DNA of 31,899 nucleotides from a virus. The notes under the pieces are model-generated. The model made no database searches. It saw only the letters and a list, made by a program, of their open reading frames with translations, and was not told where the DNA came from. Position numbers and translations under genes: made by a program. The stretch is from the IMG/VR virus record IMGVR_UViG_3300042876_001171, positions 1 through 31,899 of that record. One strand, written 5' to 3'. Positions 3,899-16,617 of this stretch are shown piece by piece (position 1 is the stretch's first letter; each line of letters opens with the position of its first letter).

Positions 3899-3927
3899 AT
3901 GATGCATAAACGTATCGGTCATGTCAA
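3899..3927 (-). promoter_or_regulatory. Leftward early promoter (PL-like)
   Basis: On the minus strand a perfect TTGACA (3922-3927) is followed after 17 bases by CATCAT (3899-3904, 4 of 6 to the -10 consensus). Transcription would start near 3892, about 12 bases before the ribosome site of the first leftward gene. Both boxes overlap operator dyads at 3900-3917 and 3925-3942, so a bound repressor would block it. Confidence 0.72.
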
Positions 3928-3967
3928 TACAGCGACGCATCATTTCCTGTGATACGGTGGCATTGGG
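3900..3967. promoter_or_regulatory. Left operator cluster: two 18-bp dyads plus one half-site, 25 bp apart
   Basis: Site 1 is TGATGC-ATAAAC-GTATCG (3900-3917). Site 2 is CAATAC-AGCGAC-GCATCA (3925-3942). A half-site TGATAC (3950-3955) begins exactly 25 bp further on. The centres at 3908.5 and 3933.5 are 25 bp apart, as in the right cluster at 4819-4861. The sites cover the leftward promoter and precede the HIRAN gene. Binding by the repressor and the Cro-like protein is inferred from position and symmetry. Confidence 0.72.
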
Positions 3968-3975
3968 GGGTGCTT

Positions 3976-4446
3976 ATGAGCGGACTGTTCCTGGTGGTGT
4001 TGATCGCTTTTGGCGTCGGAATCCTGATCTGGCTACTGGTGCCAAGGTCATCGACTCACGCGTCGGATCAGAACTCCGCGGGTGGGCGCCCGGTGATGCC
4101 GCGCATAAACGGCAACGGCAGCTACGCGATCGAGGTGGTGGGCGAGAGCCACTACCAGGCCAGCTTTGAGGCTCTGCTGGGTGCGTTGGCGTACACCGAG
4201 AGCGAGATAAGCGGCGATGCCGTGCTGCAGCTGCAGGACGACAATCCGCATGACAGCCAAGCCGTGGCCGTGTTTGTCGAAGGCCGGCAGGTAGGCCACC
4301 TGTCGCGAGACATGGCGCGCACCTTTCGTCAAGCACTGCGGCGCGATGGCTTCGGGCAGTTACGAAAGGTCGCTGTCGGTTGCCGCATCTATGGCGGCGG
4401 CACAGAAGGGCTCTTTAGCGTGAGCCTAGATCTGCCGGAGGCTTAG
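3976..4446 (+). CDS. Membrane-anchored HIRAN-domain protein
   Basis: The start is ATG 3976; an ATG at 3949 would put extra polar residues ahead of the membrane segment and lies within the operator cluster. Residues 3-23 (GLFLVVLIAFGVGILIWLLV) are a transmembrane helix, followed by a polar linker to about residue 45. The rest resembles a HIRAN domain: VVGESHYQASFEALLGAL, then LQDDNPHDSQAVAVFVEGRQ and VGHLSRDMARTF. HIRAN domains in HLTF/Rad5 bind DNA 3' ends; bacterial and phage stand-alone forms are poorly understood. The gene sits between the left operators and the repressor gene, with which it converges and overlaps by 32 bases. A role in immunity or exclusion is inference. Confidence 0.8.
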   Translation: MSGLFLVVLIAFGVGILIWLLVPRSSTHASDQNSAGGRPVMPRINGNGSYAIEVVGESHYQASFEALLGALAYTESEISGDAVLQLQDDNPHDSQAVAVFVEGRQVGHLSRDMARTFRQALRRDGFGQLRKVAVGCRIYGGGTEGLFSVSLDLPEA

Positions 4447-4786
4447 GGCCGCCCGTCTCGCGAGGGAACAGTGCCCGCGCGACATCGATGACTTGCCGCA
4501 GCTGCTCGTCGGTCAAGTGCCGCATGACGGCCTCTGCTTCGCCAAGCAAGACACGCGATGACAGTGGTACCTCGCCCATCAACTCGCTCAGCGTGACCCC
4601 GAGCGCTCTGGCTAGCGCTTCAAAGTTCTCGACCGTCATTTCCTTCGTCTTGCCGCTGAGGTAGCGCGACAGCGTGGGCTGCTCCACGCCCGCCGCTTCA
4701 GCCAGCTTTCGGTCGCTTGGGAACCCACGAGCGTCCCGCAGCTCGCGGATCCGCTCGCGTGGGTCAAAGGTGCGCCGGTAATGCAT
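4415..4786 (-). CDS. Phage repressor, XRE/HTH family, short form (CI-like)
   Basis: The 123-residue product has an N-terminal helix-turn-helix (about residues 20-70) containing RKLAEAAGVEQPTLSRYLSG with KTKEMTVENFEALARALG after it. I chose ATG 4786 because the candidate promoter at 4833-4862 would start transcription near 4826, downstream of the other possible ATG (4837). The C-terminal part (to GSR) is only about 50 residues and shows no S24/LexA-type peptidase, so RecA-driven self-cleavage is unlikely. It probably binds the 18-bp dyads at 3900-3942 and 4819-4861 and keeps the lysogenic state. Its 3' end overlaps the convergent HIRAN gene. Confidence 0.85.
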   Translation of the reverse strand: MHYRRTFDPRERIRELRDARGFPSDRKLAEAAGVEQPTLSRYLSGKTKEMTVENFEALARALGVTLSELMGEVPLSSRVLLGEAEAVMRHLTDEQLRQVIDVARALFPRETGGPKPPADLGSR

Positions 4787-4809: not shown

Positions 4810-4837
4810 TTGCGCAGGTGATGCGTGTCTGTATCAT
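4810..4837 (+). promoter_or_regulatory. Rightward early promoter (PR-like)
   Basis: TTGCGC (4810-4815) and TATCAT (4832-4837, 5 of 6 to consensus) are 16 bases apart. The start site would fall at about 4844-4846, on or next to the ATG of the cro-like gene. The promoter is overlapped by the dyad at 4819-4836 and followed by the one at 4844-4861. The -35 box is weak, so confidence is moderate. Confidence 0.55.
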
Positions 4838-4861
4838 CGCGACTTATGCATCACGGTATCA
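4819..4861. promoter_or_regulatory. Right operator cluster: two 18-bp dyads, 25 bp apart
   Basis: Site 1 is TGATGC-GTGTCT-GTATCA (4819-4836). Site 2 is TTATGC-ATCACG-GTATCA (4844-4861). The centres are 25 bp apart, identical to the left cluster, and the 10-base string TTATGCATCA of site 2 recurs inverted at 3900-3909. The sites cover the divergent promoters of the repressor and cro-like genes and the cro start codon, as expected for a CI/Cro switch. Confidence 0.75.
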
Positions 4862-4862
4862 A
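4833..4862 (-). promoter_or_regulatory. Candidate repressor promoter (PRM-like)
   Basis: On the minus strand TTGATA (4857-4862, 5 of 6) and GATGAT (4833-4838, 4 of 6) are 18 bases apart. It overlaps the rightward -10 box on the other strand, so the two promoters would exclude each other. Transcription would begin near 4826 and leave a leader of about 40 bases before ATG 4786. Confidence 0.42.
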
Positions 4863-5166
4863 CTTGTCCGCGCTGGCCCGCAGCCTTATCGACCGACGCC
4901 TGTTCACCACCAAGACCCTAGGTGAGGCCATCGGCTTGTCGCAGCCATCGGTGTCGCGCTTGGCCAGCGGCAAGACTAAGGAGATTGGTGCATATCCAGC
5001 GCTGAGGCTCATCGAGCTGGCGGGCGGGACTGTGACGCCTCCTGTGGCGGTCGAAGTCAGGCTCAAAGAGCCAGCCAACGCTCCTCCCATCCCCGCGCCT
5101 GCCGTGGCCGCCAGCCAAGCCGCACAGCCGTCCACCACCACGAAGGCCACCCATGCCGCAGGCTGA
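4846..5166 (+). CDS. Cro-like XRE/HTH regulator, 106 aa
   Basis: The start is ATG 4846 (MHHGINLSALARSLIDRR); a GTG at 4825 would extend into the operator. The helix-turn-helix spans about residues 20-50 (KTLGEAIGLSQPSVSRLASG). It carries SR-x2-SGKTKE, which the repressor encoded on the opposite strand also has, so both probably read the same operators. The C-terminal third is Pro/Ala-rich and likely disordered. No ribosome site precedes the ATG, and the predicted transcript starts almost at it, so the message may be leaderless. It would be the first gene of the rightward early transcript. Its last codons and stop lie in a 35-base segment repeated at 5538. Confidence 0.8.
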   Translation: MHHGINLSALARSLIDRRLFTTKTLGEAIGLSQPSVSRLASGKTKEIGAYPALRLIELAGGTVTPPVAVEVRLKEPANAPPIPAPAVAASQAAQPSTTTKATHAAG

Positions 5167-5456: not shown

Positions 5457-5519
5457 GGGTGCCCTCCTGGTGAGGCTGGTCGTCGTGGGGATGTCCAGCG
5501 TACACCGGGCAGGGCGCCC
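5454..5519. repeat. Cassette 5' leader, copy 1 (66 bp)
   Basis: It contains the start codon and ribosome site of gene A and matches 5835-5900 at 63 of 66 bases. I see no convincing sigma-70 promoter in it, but its conservation ahead of two different genes suggests it carries the expression signal. Confidence 0.88.
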
Positions 5520-5537
5520 TCCACAGCAAGGGGATGG

Positions 5538-5576: not shown

Positions 5577-5837
5577 TTAAGGCATGTCCAGCTCCAGCAG
5601 CACCCGAGGCGGTGATGCCGCTGCGGAGAAATCGAAGTGGCGTGCTGTACAGCGGAACTGGCGAATGTCCGGCCCAGGGTGCATGCGAATCGATAGCAAG
5701 TCCCCGATGCCCGGGAGAGGGCACCAGCCGGGCGTGCCGGGCTGCAGTGACATCGCCTCGAATGGGCCTGCTCCAACGCCTTCGTACTGCGTGGCGAGCG
5801 CATCTGCACGCCCGATGAACTGGGGTTCGACTTTCAT
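5577..5837 (-). CDS. Cassette gene B: hypothetical 86-aa protein
   Basis: ATG 5837 follows AGGAGGGGGCCC in the conserved cassette leader, which decides the start over longer readings. The product (MKVEPQFIGRADALATQYEG at the start, VLLELDMP at the end) shows no clear similarity to gene A although its leader is nearly identical, so the flanks were kept while the cargo differs. It has alternating hydrophobic residues and looks like a small beta-rich cytoplasmic protein. No family is recognised. It lies antisense to the rightward early transcript. Confidence 0.68.
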   Translation of the reverse strand: MKVEPQFIGRADALATQYEGVGAGPFEAMSLQPGTPGWCPLPGIGDLLSIRMHPGPDIRQFRCTARHFDFSAAASPPRVLLELDMP

Positions 5838-5900
5838 GGGCCCCCTCCTGGTGCGGCTGGTCGTCGTGGGGATGTCCAGCGTACACCGGGCAGGGCGCCC
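5835..5900. repeat. Cassette 5' leader, copy 2 (66 bp)
   Basis: This is the second copy of 5454-5519 with three mismatches, two next to the start codon and one in the ribosome-site region. Similarity stops sharply at 5900, which marks the cassette border. Confidence 0.88.
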
Positions 5901-5945
5901 GCCAAACCCTGCGAGGGGTGTCTCTTTCACTCCGCTGGTGCCGGC

Positions 5946-6059
5946 CTATCCGGCGGCTGCCTTCTCCTCCTGCGGCGGCCGGGGTGACCTGGCCCTCGGC
6001 CCACGGGCCGGGGGCGTTTTCTTCAACCGCGGCTGAGCCGCCAGCACTGCACACGCCAT
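5946..6059 (-). CDS. Possible small basic, proline-rich protein, 37 aa
   Basis: An ATG at 6059 opens a 38-codon frame with a basic/proline-rich sequence containing QPRLKKTPPARGPRARS and ending EEKAAAG. Its start codon overlaps, on the other strand, the ATG of the RHH gene at 6058, and its ribosome site (AAGG) is very close to the start. No non-coding explanation is obvious for the ordered Lys/Arg/Pro pattern, but GC-rich DNA can give this by chance. Treat it as tentative. Confidence 0.3.
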   Translation of the reverse strand: MACAVLAAQPRLKKTPPARGPRARSPRPPQEEKAAAG

Positions 6060-6273
6060 GAGCCTTGACCGCAAAGACCTGCGCATCAAGTTGGACCCCG
6101 ACGATCACGCCGGCCTGCAGCTGCTGGCCGACGCCGAAGACCAGGACATGAGCGCCTGGGCCGAGGCCCTGCTCAAGCGCGAGATCCGTCGTCGTGTGCA
6201 TGCCGCCATCTTGCTGGCCAAGCGCGCGGAGCGCTTGGGATTAGCCGGGAGTGCACTCCCGGCTGAGCGCTGA
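6058..6273 (+). CDS. Ribbon-helix-helix type DNA-binding protein, 71 aa
   Basis: The protein starts MSLDRKDLRIKLDPDDHAGL, with a beta strand (DLRIKLD) followed by two helices (DDHAGLQLLADAEDQ, then MSAWAEALLKREIRRRV), which is the layout of Arc/MetJ-like ribbon-helix-helix proteins. These bind DNA as dimers through the strand. A basic tail RRRVHAAILLAKRAERLG follows. A perfect 22-bp palindrome lies in its last codons and a related site 42 bp further on, which could be its own targets. It comes before the replication genes and may control them. No toxin partner is seen. Confidence 0.72.
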   Translation: MSLDRKDLRIKLDPDDHAGLQLLADAEDQDMSAWAEALLKREIRRRVHAAILLAKRAERLGLAGSALPAER

Positions 6274-6303
6274 CATCAGGGAGTGGCCGGGAATGGACTC
6301 CCT
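6243..6303. promoter_or_regulatory. Two related palindromes, centres 42 bp apart
   Basis: Bases 6243-6264 form a perfect 22-bp palindrome (AGCCGGGAGTG and its complement). Bases 6286-6303 are a related imperfect site, GCCGGGAATG-GACTCCCT. The centres (6253.5 and 6295.5) are 42 bp apart, four turns of B-DNA. No T-run follows, so termination is unlikely. They lie between the RHH gene and the winged-helix gene and look like operators. Confidence 0.55.
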
Positions 6304-6333
6304 AGACACGGCAAATGCCGCACAGGTGCGTTG

Positions 6334-6639
6334 ATGCGGCCGCTTGGTGACATTGCCCGCGCCATGCTGCAGCACGCCAGCACACCGGGCACGGTGCGCG
6401 AGGTGTGCGAGCGGGCGCATGTGGGCTACGGCACGGGGGCGTACACGGCCAGCCGGCTGCTGAGTGCCGGGCTGCTGGTGGCGGATGCGAAGGCGCCGGC
6501 GCCCCAGCGGGCTGCCCGCGGCCGCCCGCCGATGGTGGTGATGGTGGCGCCTGAGCACGATGACGAAGGCGTGGTGCACCTGCTGCAGCGCGCGTTCGCG
6601 CTGCGGCGCCCCACTGCTTTGGAGTGGGACGCGCTGTAG
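6334..6639 (+). CDS. Winged-helix-like DNA-binding protein, 101 aa
   Basis: The start ATG 6334 follows AGGTGC at 7 bases; longer readings run through the palindrome at 6286-6303. The N-terminal 65 residues fit a winged helix: MRPLGDIARAMLQHASTPGT, a turn, then REVCERAHVGYGTGAYTASR as a recognition-helix region and LLSAGLLVADAKAPA as the wing. The rest is Val-rich (PPMVVMVAPEHDDEGVVHLL). It stands directly before the primase-helicase gene in the same frame, so a replication-initiation or regulatory role is likely. The family is not assigned more closely. Confidence 0.65.
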   Translation: MRPLGDIARAMLQHASTPGTVREVCERAHVGYGTGAYTASRLLSAGLLVADAKAPAPQRAARGRPPMVVMVAPEHDDEGVVHLLQRAFALRRPTALEWDAL

Positions 6640-14525: not shown

Positions 14526-15252
14526 CAACCGCGGGCCGCGCGCCCCGGTGCAGCTTGAGGGCTCCACCCTCTACGTCTACGACGCCATCGTCGGCACCAA
14601 CGCCGAGGCCGAGTTCTGGGGCGGCGTCAGCGCCGAGGCGCTGGTGCCCGTGCTGCTGAATCAGCCCGAGGGCGCCACCCTCACCATGCGCATCAACAGC
14701 GGCGGCGGTGATGCGTTCGCGGGGCAGGCCATCCTCAACGCAATGCGGCAAAGCCCCGCCACCATCAACGTCGAAGTCGACGGCCTGGCCGCCAGCGCCG
14801 CGTCGATCATCGCCCTCGGTGGCGACCGCGTGCGCATCGCTGAAGGCGCCATGGTCATGATCCACAACGCCTGGATCATCGCCATGGGCAACGCGCAGGA
14901 CATGATCGAAACCGCCGCCCTGCTGTCCAAAGTGGACGACACCGCCGCGCAGCAGTACGCCGACAAGACCGGCAAAGACAAAGCCCGCATGGCCGAGCTC
15001 ATGGCCGCAGAAACCTGGTTCAGCGCCTCCGAGGCGCTTGACATCGGCCTCGTCAACGAAATCGTCAAGCCCGCCGCCAAGGCCCAGGCCCAGGCCAGCG
15101 CCCCGGCCAAGGTGTGGAACCTCTCCGCCTACAGCAAGCCGCCCCAGGCGGCCTGCCAAGCCCCCCAGCCGCCGGCCGAGCCGGTGCTGAGCCCCGAACA
15201 AGCCCGCGCCCTCATGGCGCGGGTTGACAAACGCTGGCGCCGCGCAGCATGA
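14497..15252 (+). CDS. Prohead maturation protease, ClpP/S14 type, 251 aa
   Basis: ATG 14497 follows GGGAG inside the portal gene. The protein has the ClpP crotonase-like core: RINSGGGDAFAGQAI (residues 66-80) for the oxyanion region, GLAASAASIIALGG with the probable nucleophile Ser100, and MVMIHNAW with His123. The next block, EETAALLSK-like helices and AETWFSASEALDIGLV, closes the domain. A Pro/Ala-rich tail runs from about residue 200. It should cleave the capsid protein's N-terminal scaffold region and other prohead parts. A terminator-like hairpin follows the stop. Confidence 0.92.
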   Translation: MRKLLQLLADNRGPRAPVQLEGSTLYVYDAIVGTNAEAEFWGGVSAEALVPVLLNQPEGATLTMRINSGGGDAFAGQAILNAMRQSPATINVEVDGLAASAASIIALGGDRVRIAEGAMVMIHNAWIIAMGNAQDMIETAALLSKVDDTAAQQYADKTGKDKARMAELMAAETWFSASEALDIGLVNEIVKPAAKAQAQASAPAKVWNLSAYSKPPQAACQAPQPPAEPVLSPEQARALMARVDKRWRRAA

Positions 15253-15297: not shown

Positions 15298-15336
15298 GTG
15301 CCCGCTCGGGCGCCATCCCTACCTGAAAGGTAACCC

Positions 15337-16617
15337 TTGAAGCTGCAACAACGCCTCCAAGCGCTGCGTGCCGAGCGTGACACCGCCGCCACGACTCTGC
15401 GCCAGCACGTCGAAACCAAGACCGGCAACGGCTGGACCGCCGACGACACCGCCAAGTACGACGCCGGCCTTTCCGACATCGACCGCATCGATGCCGAGAT
15501 CGACCGCATCGAGAAGGTCATCAAGACCGAAAGCGCCGTCAACCAGGCGCTTGACCGCCGCGCCGGCACCCGCGACATCAGCGACCAGCGCGCGCAAGAC
15601 GAAGCCAACGCCGAGATGGCCGTCTTCATGGGCTGGCTCAAGAACGGCATGCAGGGCCTCACGCCCGAGCAGCAAGCCGTCGCGCAGCGCCACCTCACCA
15701 CGGTGCAGGGCGCCGGCGTCGCCACCGGTGCCGCCGGTGGCTTCACCGTGCCGCAGGAGTTCCTGGCCGTGCTGGAAACCTCCATGCGCGCCTACGGCGG
15801 CATGCGCGACGTCGCCACCATCATCCGCACCGCATCGGGCGCCGACATGCCCATGCCCACCAACAACGACACGTCCAACTCCGGCTCGATCATCGCGGAG
15901 AACACCGCGCAGTCCGTGCTCGACGTGACGTTCGGCCAGGTCATCCTGCGGGCGTTCATGTACACCAGCGGCATCGTCCCGGTGAGCTACCAGCTTCTCA
16001 ACGACACCGCCTTCGACATGGGCACCTGGCTGGCCAACCAGCTCGGCCTGCGCCTGGCGCGCATCGAAAACAACCACTTCACCCTGGGCACCGGCGTGGC
16101 CACGCAGCCGCAAGGCATCGCCAACGCTACCGTGGGCCTCACCATCGGCCACACGCAAGCCACGGGTGGCGCCACGGGCTACACCTACCCCGGCCTCGTC
16201 ACGCTGCAGCACAGCGTCGATCCGGCGTACCGCCGCATGCCCAACTGCGTGTGGATGATGTCCGACACGGCGCTGCGCCAGGTGCGGCTCATCGTCGACA
16301 CGCAAAACCGCCCGATCTTCGTGCCCGGCTACACCATCGGCAACGACGCTGTCGGCGCCGCCCCCGACACGATCATGGGCCACCGCCTCGTCATCAACCA
16401 AGACATGCCCGTGCCCGCAGCCAACGCGCGCTCCGTGGCGTTCGGCGACTTCTCCAAGTACTTCATCCGTGAAGTGCAGGGAATCCAGGTCGTGCGGCTG
16501 AACGAGCGCTTCGCCGATGCGCTGCAGGTTGCCTTCTTCGGCTACCAGCGCGTTGACGGCCGCATCCTGGACGCGGGCACCAACCCCATCCGCCTGCTGC
16601 AAAACAGCGCCACCTGA
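15337..16617 (+). CDS. Major capsid protein, HK97 fold, with N-terminal scaffold domain
   Basis: The start is TTG 15337 with AAAGGT 7-8 bases upstream; no better start fits the N-terminal coiled coil. Residues 1-95 are helical and charged (KLQQRLQALRAERDTAATTL, SDIDRIDAEIDRIEKVIKT) and correspond to the delta/scaffold domain of HK97-type capsid precursors. The mature part probably begins around residues 115-135, near GAGVATGAAGGFTVPQEF. The fold is then seen in TIIRTASGADMPMPT, FMYTSGIVPVSYQLLNDTAF and the C-terminal VVRLNERFADALQVAFFGYQ-type strand. The upstream protease would remove the N-terminal domain. Confidence 0.95.
   Translation: MKLQQRLQALRAERDTAATTLRQHVETKTGNGWTADDTAKYDAGLSDIDRIDAEIDRIEKVIKTESAVNQALDRRAGTRDISDQRAQDEANAEMAVFMGWLKNGMQGLTPEQQAVAQRHLTTVQGAGVATGAAGGFTVPQEFLAVLETSMRAYGGMRDVATIIRTASGADMPMPTNNDTSNSGSIIAENTAQSVLDVTFGQVILRAFMYTSGIVPVSYQLLNDTAFDMGTWLANQLGLRLARIENNHFTLGTGVATQPQGIANATVGLTIGHTQATGGATGYTYPGLVTLQHSVDPAYRRMPNCVWMMSDTALRQVRLIVDTQNRPIFVPGYTIGNDAVGAAPDTIMGHRLVINQDMPVPAANARSVAFGDFSKYFIREVQGIQVVRLNERFADALQVAFFGYQRVDGRILDAGTNPIRLLQNSAT

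Follow-up and report, generated by a model that had tools for sequence, protein, structure and literature searches.

Prophages keep genes against other phages next to the repressor gene, a position that is a known hotspot for exclusion genes and is occupied in other prophages by rexAB or by bstA, the product of which acts on phage DNA replication (PMC8585504). Phage DNA replication is also halted by PdpSau, which is likewise encoded by a prophage (PMC10127798). Phage HIRAN proteins have been reported before (PMC6469090), and the occurrence of the domain in HipL and HipN as well as candidate links to defence are already known; the prokaryotic domains as a whole have been termed uncharacterized (PMC11090510). 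The pocket of the human HLTF HIRAN domain binds single-stranded DNA, with Y72 and Y93 stacking on a dinucleotide, its DNA binding is abolished in the NN90,91AA mutant, and the process that the domain serves is fork regression (PMC4666394).

The locus described here combines features of these systems. It lies in the window, i.e. the whole 31.9-kb virus record that was analysed (31,899 nucleotides), which shows the phage gene order of repressor, replication, terminase and tail, and it consists of a HIRAN gene (hiran) between matching operators beside the repressor gene (Table 1). L numbers denote individual loci.

Table 1. Features of the hiran locus and of the integron-borne relatives.
Feature	Coordinates	Strand	Basis or remarks
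hiran gene, predicted membrane-anchored HIRAN protein	3976..4446	+	ATG 3976, stop ends 4446, 156 aa
Shine-Dalgarno-like GGGGGGTG of hiran, strong	3965..3972	+	read from sequence
N-terminal hydrophobic helix, residues 2-21	3979..4038	+	hydropathy, AlphaFold2
HIRAN domain, about residues 45-156	4108..4443	+	Pfam, profile, fold, alignment
PL-like sigma-70 promoter TTGACA-17-CATCAT, left operon	3899..3927	-	10/12
Left operator OL1, TGATGCATAA	3900..3909	.	identical to inverted copy at 4844-4853
Left operator OL2, ATACAGCGACGCATCA	3927..3942	.	88% to inverted copy at 4819-4834
Xre/CI-type repressor gene	4415..4786	-	HTH_3 1e-10; ORF open to 4837
Right operator, TGATGCGTGTCTGTAT	4819..4834	.	TGATGCRT copy, inverted match of OL2
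PRM-like promoter TTGATA-18-GATGAT, for repressor	4833..4862	-	9/12
Right operator, TTATGCATCA	4844..4853	.	TGATGCRT copy, inverted match of OL1
Cro-like HTH gene, first of right operon	4849..5166	+	weak: PHROG transcriptional repressor 4e-5, Pfam HTH_26 0.006
Integron region, L042	3203-4243	-	attC-like repeats
Integron TM-HIRAN region, L042	5932-6520		attC-like repeats
Integron TM-HIRAN region, L039	5866-6450		attC-like repeats
Integron TM-HIRAN region, L040	5814-6440		attC-like repeats

Architecture of the hiran protein

The hiran product begins with a single hydrophobic helix, which a loose linker connects to a HIRAN domain that makes up the C-terminal two thirds of the polypeptide. The domain was assigned by Pfam (PF08797, E=4.8e-8, 33.1 bits against a curated cut-off of 24.7 bits), the sole other Pfam result being a sub-threshold match to Sarcolipin. 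A phmmer comparison with the human HLTF HIRAN domain gave E=0.006, and the family profile matched the solved structures of human HLTF (3e-7) and of the bacterial protein lp_0118 (3k2y; 3e-4). The AlphaFold2 model, built from an alignment of 40 window and locus sequences, has a mean pLDDT of 88.2, and its comparison by VIA-align with the bacterial 3k2y structure (Z 8.5 over 95 residues) and with HLTF 4xzg (Z 6.3 over 87 residues) placed both above the unrelated rows. The Cas12f, SmpB and eIF5A barrels that appear in the same listing at Z 2-5 were taken to reflect a common barrel shape only. An initial annotation of this DNA had read a HIRAN domain from the sequence and had proposed the comparison of a predicted structure with HLTF as a check; Pfam, the HLTF profile match, the model and the structural alignment all agree with that reading. 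Homology, the Shine-Dalgarno-like sequence and the fold also rule out an artefactual reading frame.

For residues 2-21 the best 19-residue Kyte-Doolittle mean is 3.09, and AlphaFold2 predicts these residues to be helical with pLDDT values of 91-95, in support of the single membrane-tethering helix of the initial annotation; from these values, the helix is expected to insert into the membrane. The linker that follows is poorly supported in the model (pLDDT < 50 for residues 26-33).

Residues N90, H92 and D93 of the window protein are the equivalents of HLTF N91, Y93 and D94. Among 40 homologues, N90 is kept in 39 and D93 in all 40, and 39 have H, Y or F at position 92. Because the equivalents of HLTF N91 and D94 are conserved, together with H, Y or F at the place of HLTF Y93, nucleic-acid binding by the hiran protein is plausible. 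Two further HLTF residues, R71 and N90, have no kept counterpart in the hiran protein, and its HIRAN domain is acidic (net charge -6).

The immunity region

The window contains five copies of the motif TGATGCRT, four of which (at 3900, 3935, 4819 and 4846) flank the hiran-repressor pair. Together with the PL-like and PRM-like promoters, they uphold the earlier placement of the gene, with the left operators on one side and the repressor on the other. The arrangement is that of phage lambda, OL - (rex) - cI - OR, hiran taking the place of rex; it differs in that hiran is convergent with the repressor gene, with an overlap of 32 bp. For the repressor, a start at 4786 is most likely, rather than one at 4837, since the PRM-like promoter and the operators occupy 4819-4862. 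No S24 domain was found in the window repressor in the record. In the interval that separates the Cro-like gene from the replication genes, a near-identical stretch, CTGGTCGTCGTGGGGATGTCCAGCGTACACCGGGCAGGGCGCCC, is present twice, at 5470-5530 and 5850-5905, about 380 bp apart.

OL2 is positioned between PL and the hiran start, such that any hiran promoter would overlap it. As OL2 sits where a hiran promoter is expected, and as a search for a plus-strand sigma-70 promoter for hiran found no good one, hiran may be under repressor control. With the gene convergent with the repressor, outside its operon and with OL2 at the promoter place, the lysogen may not express hiran.

The overlap of OL2 with the likely hiran promoter gives rise to the main rival of an exclusion function, namely that hiran is an immediate-early gene with a role in handling the phage's own DNA, and that CI at OL2 shuts it off along with PL. 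Once the DNA has been injected, or the prophage induced, its product would tether the phage's own linear ends or replication forks to the membrane or protect them there, much as end-protecting or fork-remodelling proteins do. The strong Shine-Dalgarno-like sequence is in keeping with such a role, as is the service of the HLTF domain in fork regression (PMC4666394), and the same arrangement is found in Nostoc phage Nsp-JY10, where operators at 4897-4911 and 4932-4946 lie just before the gene at 5001. This explanation is nevertheless judged unlikely, on the evidence from relatives presented below.

Recurrence beside phage repressors

No relatives came up when the viral and genome collections were scanned with the single sequence; NCBIfam gave no match for the hiran protein and PHROGs only weak, unannotated ones. 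Scanning with a four-sequence alignment yielded 76 homologous loci, 33 of them viral and 43 bacterial, and tblastn identified Nsp-JY10 (L002), in which hiran is convergent with an S24/Xre repressor gene at a distance of 3 bp. Distances were evaluated for the 27 viral records in which a repressor was called. The HIRAN gene is at most 150 bp away from it in 12 of them, against 1.2 expected for random placement (p 5e-10), at most 500 bp away in 15 (1.8 expected) and at most 1 kb away in 17 (2.6 expected, p 9e-12); the p values take no account of kinship among the records. HNH genes, used as a control in the same records, essentially never adjoin the repressor (one weak match). The distance statistics and this control rule out chance adjacency, and the homologues near phage repressors that the initial annotation had suggested looking for are present. 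On a maximum-likelihood tree, repressor adjacency requires 16 changes compared with 17.4 for shuffled labels, with at least 5 forced; the label being unclustered, adjacency has been gained or swapped in many times.

The operators recur as well. Copies of TAGCGANNNNCGCTA at 4897, 4932, 6095 and 6154 stand on both sides of the hiran-repressor pair in Nsp-JY10, and operators likewise flank the pair in a Phenylobacterium prophage (L061); matching operators on either side of the pair were sought in L013, and none were found. Four phages carry hiran flush with the stop of an upstream S24 repressor gene or overlapping it (by 0-4 bases), which implies co-expression in lysogeny. These four belong to the ten or so relatives that lie directly behind a repressor gene on the same strand, an arrangement that argues for lysogenic expression and hence against a gene reserved for the phage's own early replication.

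The lack of a detectable S24 domain in the window repressor, and the adjacent, convergent placement of the two genes, would suit a device for lysogeny control, in which detection of damaged DNA or stalled forks by the HIRAN domain would lift repression, providing an induction route for a repressor that lacks the S24 autoprotease; recognition of damaged DNA has at least been proposed for the domain (Iyer et al. 2006). However, an S24 domain is present in many of the HIRAN-adjacent repressors (L005, L008, L013, L015, L034 and the Nostoc phage), which rules out a strict dependence on an S24-less repressor, and the pairing does not track the absence of SOS cleavage. A membrane anchor would also be an odd choice for a repressor partner, and copies in integrons have no repressor. 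A role in lysogeny control is accordingly considered very improbable.

Two HIRAN genes in tandem (14908-15138 and 15298-15540) are located directly behind the S24 repressor gene in L011 (IMGVR_UViG_3300046471_000117), and in L034 the HIRAN frame (5624-6028), which adjoins an S24 repressor gene, is split into two pieces in the record. A group of Pseudomonas and phage proteins (L019, L021, L022, L054, L058, L060 and L066) shows an amphipathic-looking start, a long winged-helix-like middle and a HIRAN domain; in the phages of this group that were checked, the HIRAN gene lies far from the repressor.

The membrane anchor across homologues

Simple hydropathy and pattern rules divide the N-termini of the 76 loci into 29 with a predicted transmembrane (TM) helix, about 21 that look amphipathic (e.g. 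MGLLDWLF, MSWWKRIF) and a remainder with neither. The cI-operon relatives that BLAST ranks closest to the window protein (L005, L006, L008, L012 and L015) are without a membrane anchor. As anchored and unanchored members both occupy the repressor slot, the anchor is common but not obligatory. The charges that flank the helix carry little information for the window protein taken singly; a comparison of 30 anchored proteins found more positive charge on the C-terminal side of the helix in 20, from which the HIRAN domain is predicted to be cytoplasmic.

Other locations and turnover of the slot

The anchored architecture also recurs away from phages. A direct-repeat search revealed TM-HIRAN genes as gene cassettes, with attC-like repeats on both sides, in Lysobacter sp. 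M2-1 (L042), where the array includes an integron integrase (TIGR02249, 1e-151), and in two Luteimonas genomes. Recent work has shown that chromosomal integrons serve as reservoirs of antiphage genes (PMC12409362). In Kangiella spongicola (L041), a TM-HIRAN gene at 5917-6390 has cinA/pncC-like genes on one side and recA-recX-like genes on the other, with mutS close by, as assigned by eye.

Homologues in many bacterial chromosomes, including the Kangiella gene with its cinA/pncC-like and recA-recX-like neighbours, would be compatible with a moron gene that has a host-directed, non-phage role, for example in nucleic-acid uptake, repair or membrane stress. Such a role would not predict that the gene is linked so strongly and so often to phage repressors, and residence in integron cassettes suits a defence gene no less well, so that a moron with a host function is regarded as distinctly improbable. 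Standalone copies in bacterial chromosomes and integrons lack a neighbouring phage, which also speaks against a function in handling the phage's own DNA.

Two prophages related to the window, reached via a Polaromonas genome, have terminases 68-70% identical to that of the window and other genes in the slot. In one (L091, 9865-11369), the slot contains an unrelated 231-aa membrane/coiled-coil protein, convergent with the repressor, for which no phage relative was found in the annotated collection; in the other (L092), a zinc-ribbon protein is encoded behind the repressor. As these related prophages hold different genes there, the slot behaves as a swappable accessory slot. The exchange of hiran for unrelated genes among close relatives further indicates that it is not a core replication function, as service to the phage's own DNA would have it.

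Proposed function

The reading preferred here, with a probability of roughly 0.5, is that hiran encodes an accessory prophage protein of the exclusion or abortive-infection type, situated in the lambda rex slot, that catches phage DNA at the membrane. The N-terminal helix would tether the HIRAN domain to the inner membrane on its cytoplasmic side. There, phage DNA that is entering the cell or beginning to replicate would be bound in the pocket through its exposed 3' ends or its single strands and, sequestered in this way at the membrane, would be kept from circularising or replicating. The expected mode resembles that of AbiP and PdpSau, in which a membrane helix and a nucleic-acid-binding barrel halt phage DNA replication, although the domain is unrelated. 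We infer an action on incoming DNA, which the initial annotation had raised, more readily because of the rex/bstA-like slot, its recurrence in unrelated phages, its variable content and the integron cassettes. Counted against exclusion are the possible silence of the gene in the lysogen, the unanchored state of the nearest cI-operon relatives, the acidic domain, the unkept HLTF R71 and N90 positions, the distance from the repressor in the Pseudomonas-type group and the weakness of the PADLOC matches.

More tentatively, and with some doubt, the anchored proteins may form a widespread class of antiphage sensors of DNA ends, repeatedly recruited to the repressor slot and shuffled as integron cassettes. 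If so, this would be the first function assigned to standalone bacterial HIRAN domains. The recurrence in the slot and in integrons offers a concrete hypothesis of function, the capture of phage DNA at the membrane, and the pattern VGESxYQ...DNPHD...VGHLSR behind an N-terminal helix provides a sequence handle with which more members can be found.

Comparison with known systems

Within the HIRAN family (PF08797; HLTF, Rad5, HipL/HipN and BIT20_019 of phage DLP4), the hiran protein shares the fold, the motif NPxDxxA...VGHL and the pocket N and D, and differs in a helix (residues 58-73) inserted after the first strand, the VGESxYQ motif, the N-terminal membrane helix and the lack of a helicase or kinase partner. 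The PADLOC candidate PDC-M03B, a candidate family only, gives weak matches restricted to the HIRAN part (best E for the window protein 0.03).

BstA, of the Salmonella prophage BTP1, is like hiran in being a prophage defence gene found repeatedly 3' of the repressor, but it is a different protein, with no Pfam match in common, and is located in the cI operon. We know of no membrane helix in BstA. PdpSau of a Staphylococcus aureus prophage and AbiP of Lactococcus have a single N-terminal membrane helix joined to a cytoplasmic nucleic-acid-binding barrel (PMC10127798), the architecture predicted for the hiran protein. In contrast to hiran, PdpSau has a positively charged, OB-fold-like region and 278 aa, and its gene lies in the lysis module rather than beside the repressor; no sequence relation was detectable (hhalign probability 0.1%, a comparison made with the PdpSau sequence).

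The initial annotation had known of no described system with this layout. The combination has no counterpart in the open-access papers searched, in which no description of a membrane-anchored HIRAN protein, or of a HIRAN protein in an immunity slot, was found, whereas its parts are known (PMC6469090, PMC10127798, PMC8585504). In location hiran agrees with the lambda RexAB type, since both take the slot next to cI, in the window with operators on both sides, and the combination of DNA binding with a membrane component in RexAB (PMC12894663) is predicted for the hiran protein too. The organization differs: RexAB are two proteins, the DNA-binding RexA and the membrane protein RexB, encoded as a two-gene operon just downstream of cI, while hiran is a single, convergent gene for one polypeptide. 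Placed among the accessory exclusion proteins of prophages, the hiran product is probably one of a kind not yet described, which, if the exclusion reading is true, would achieve in one protein a RexAB-like coupling of DNA sensing to the membrane.
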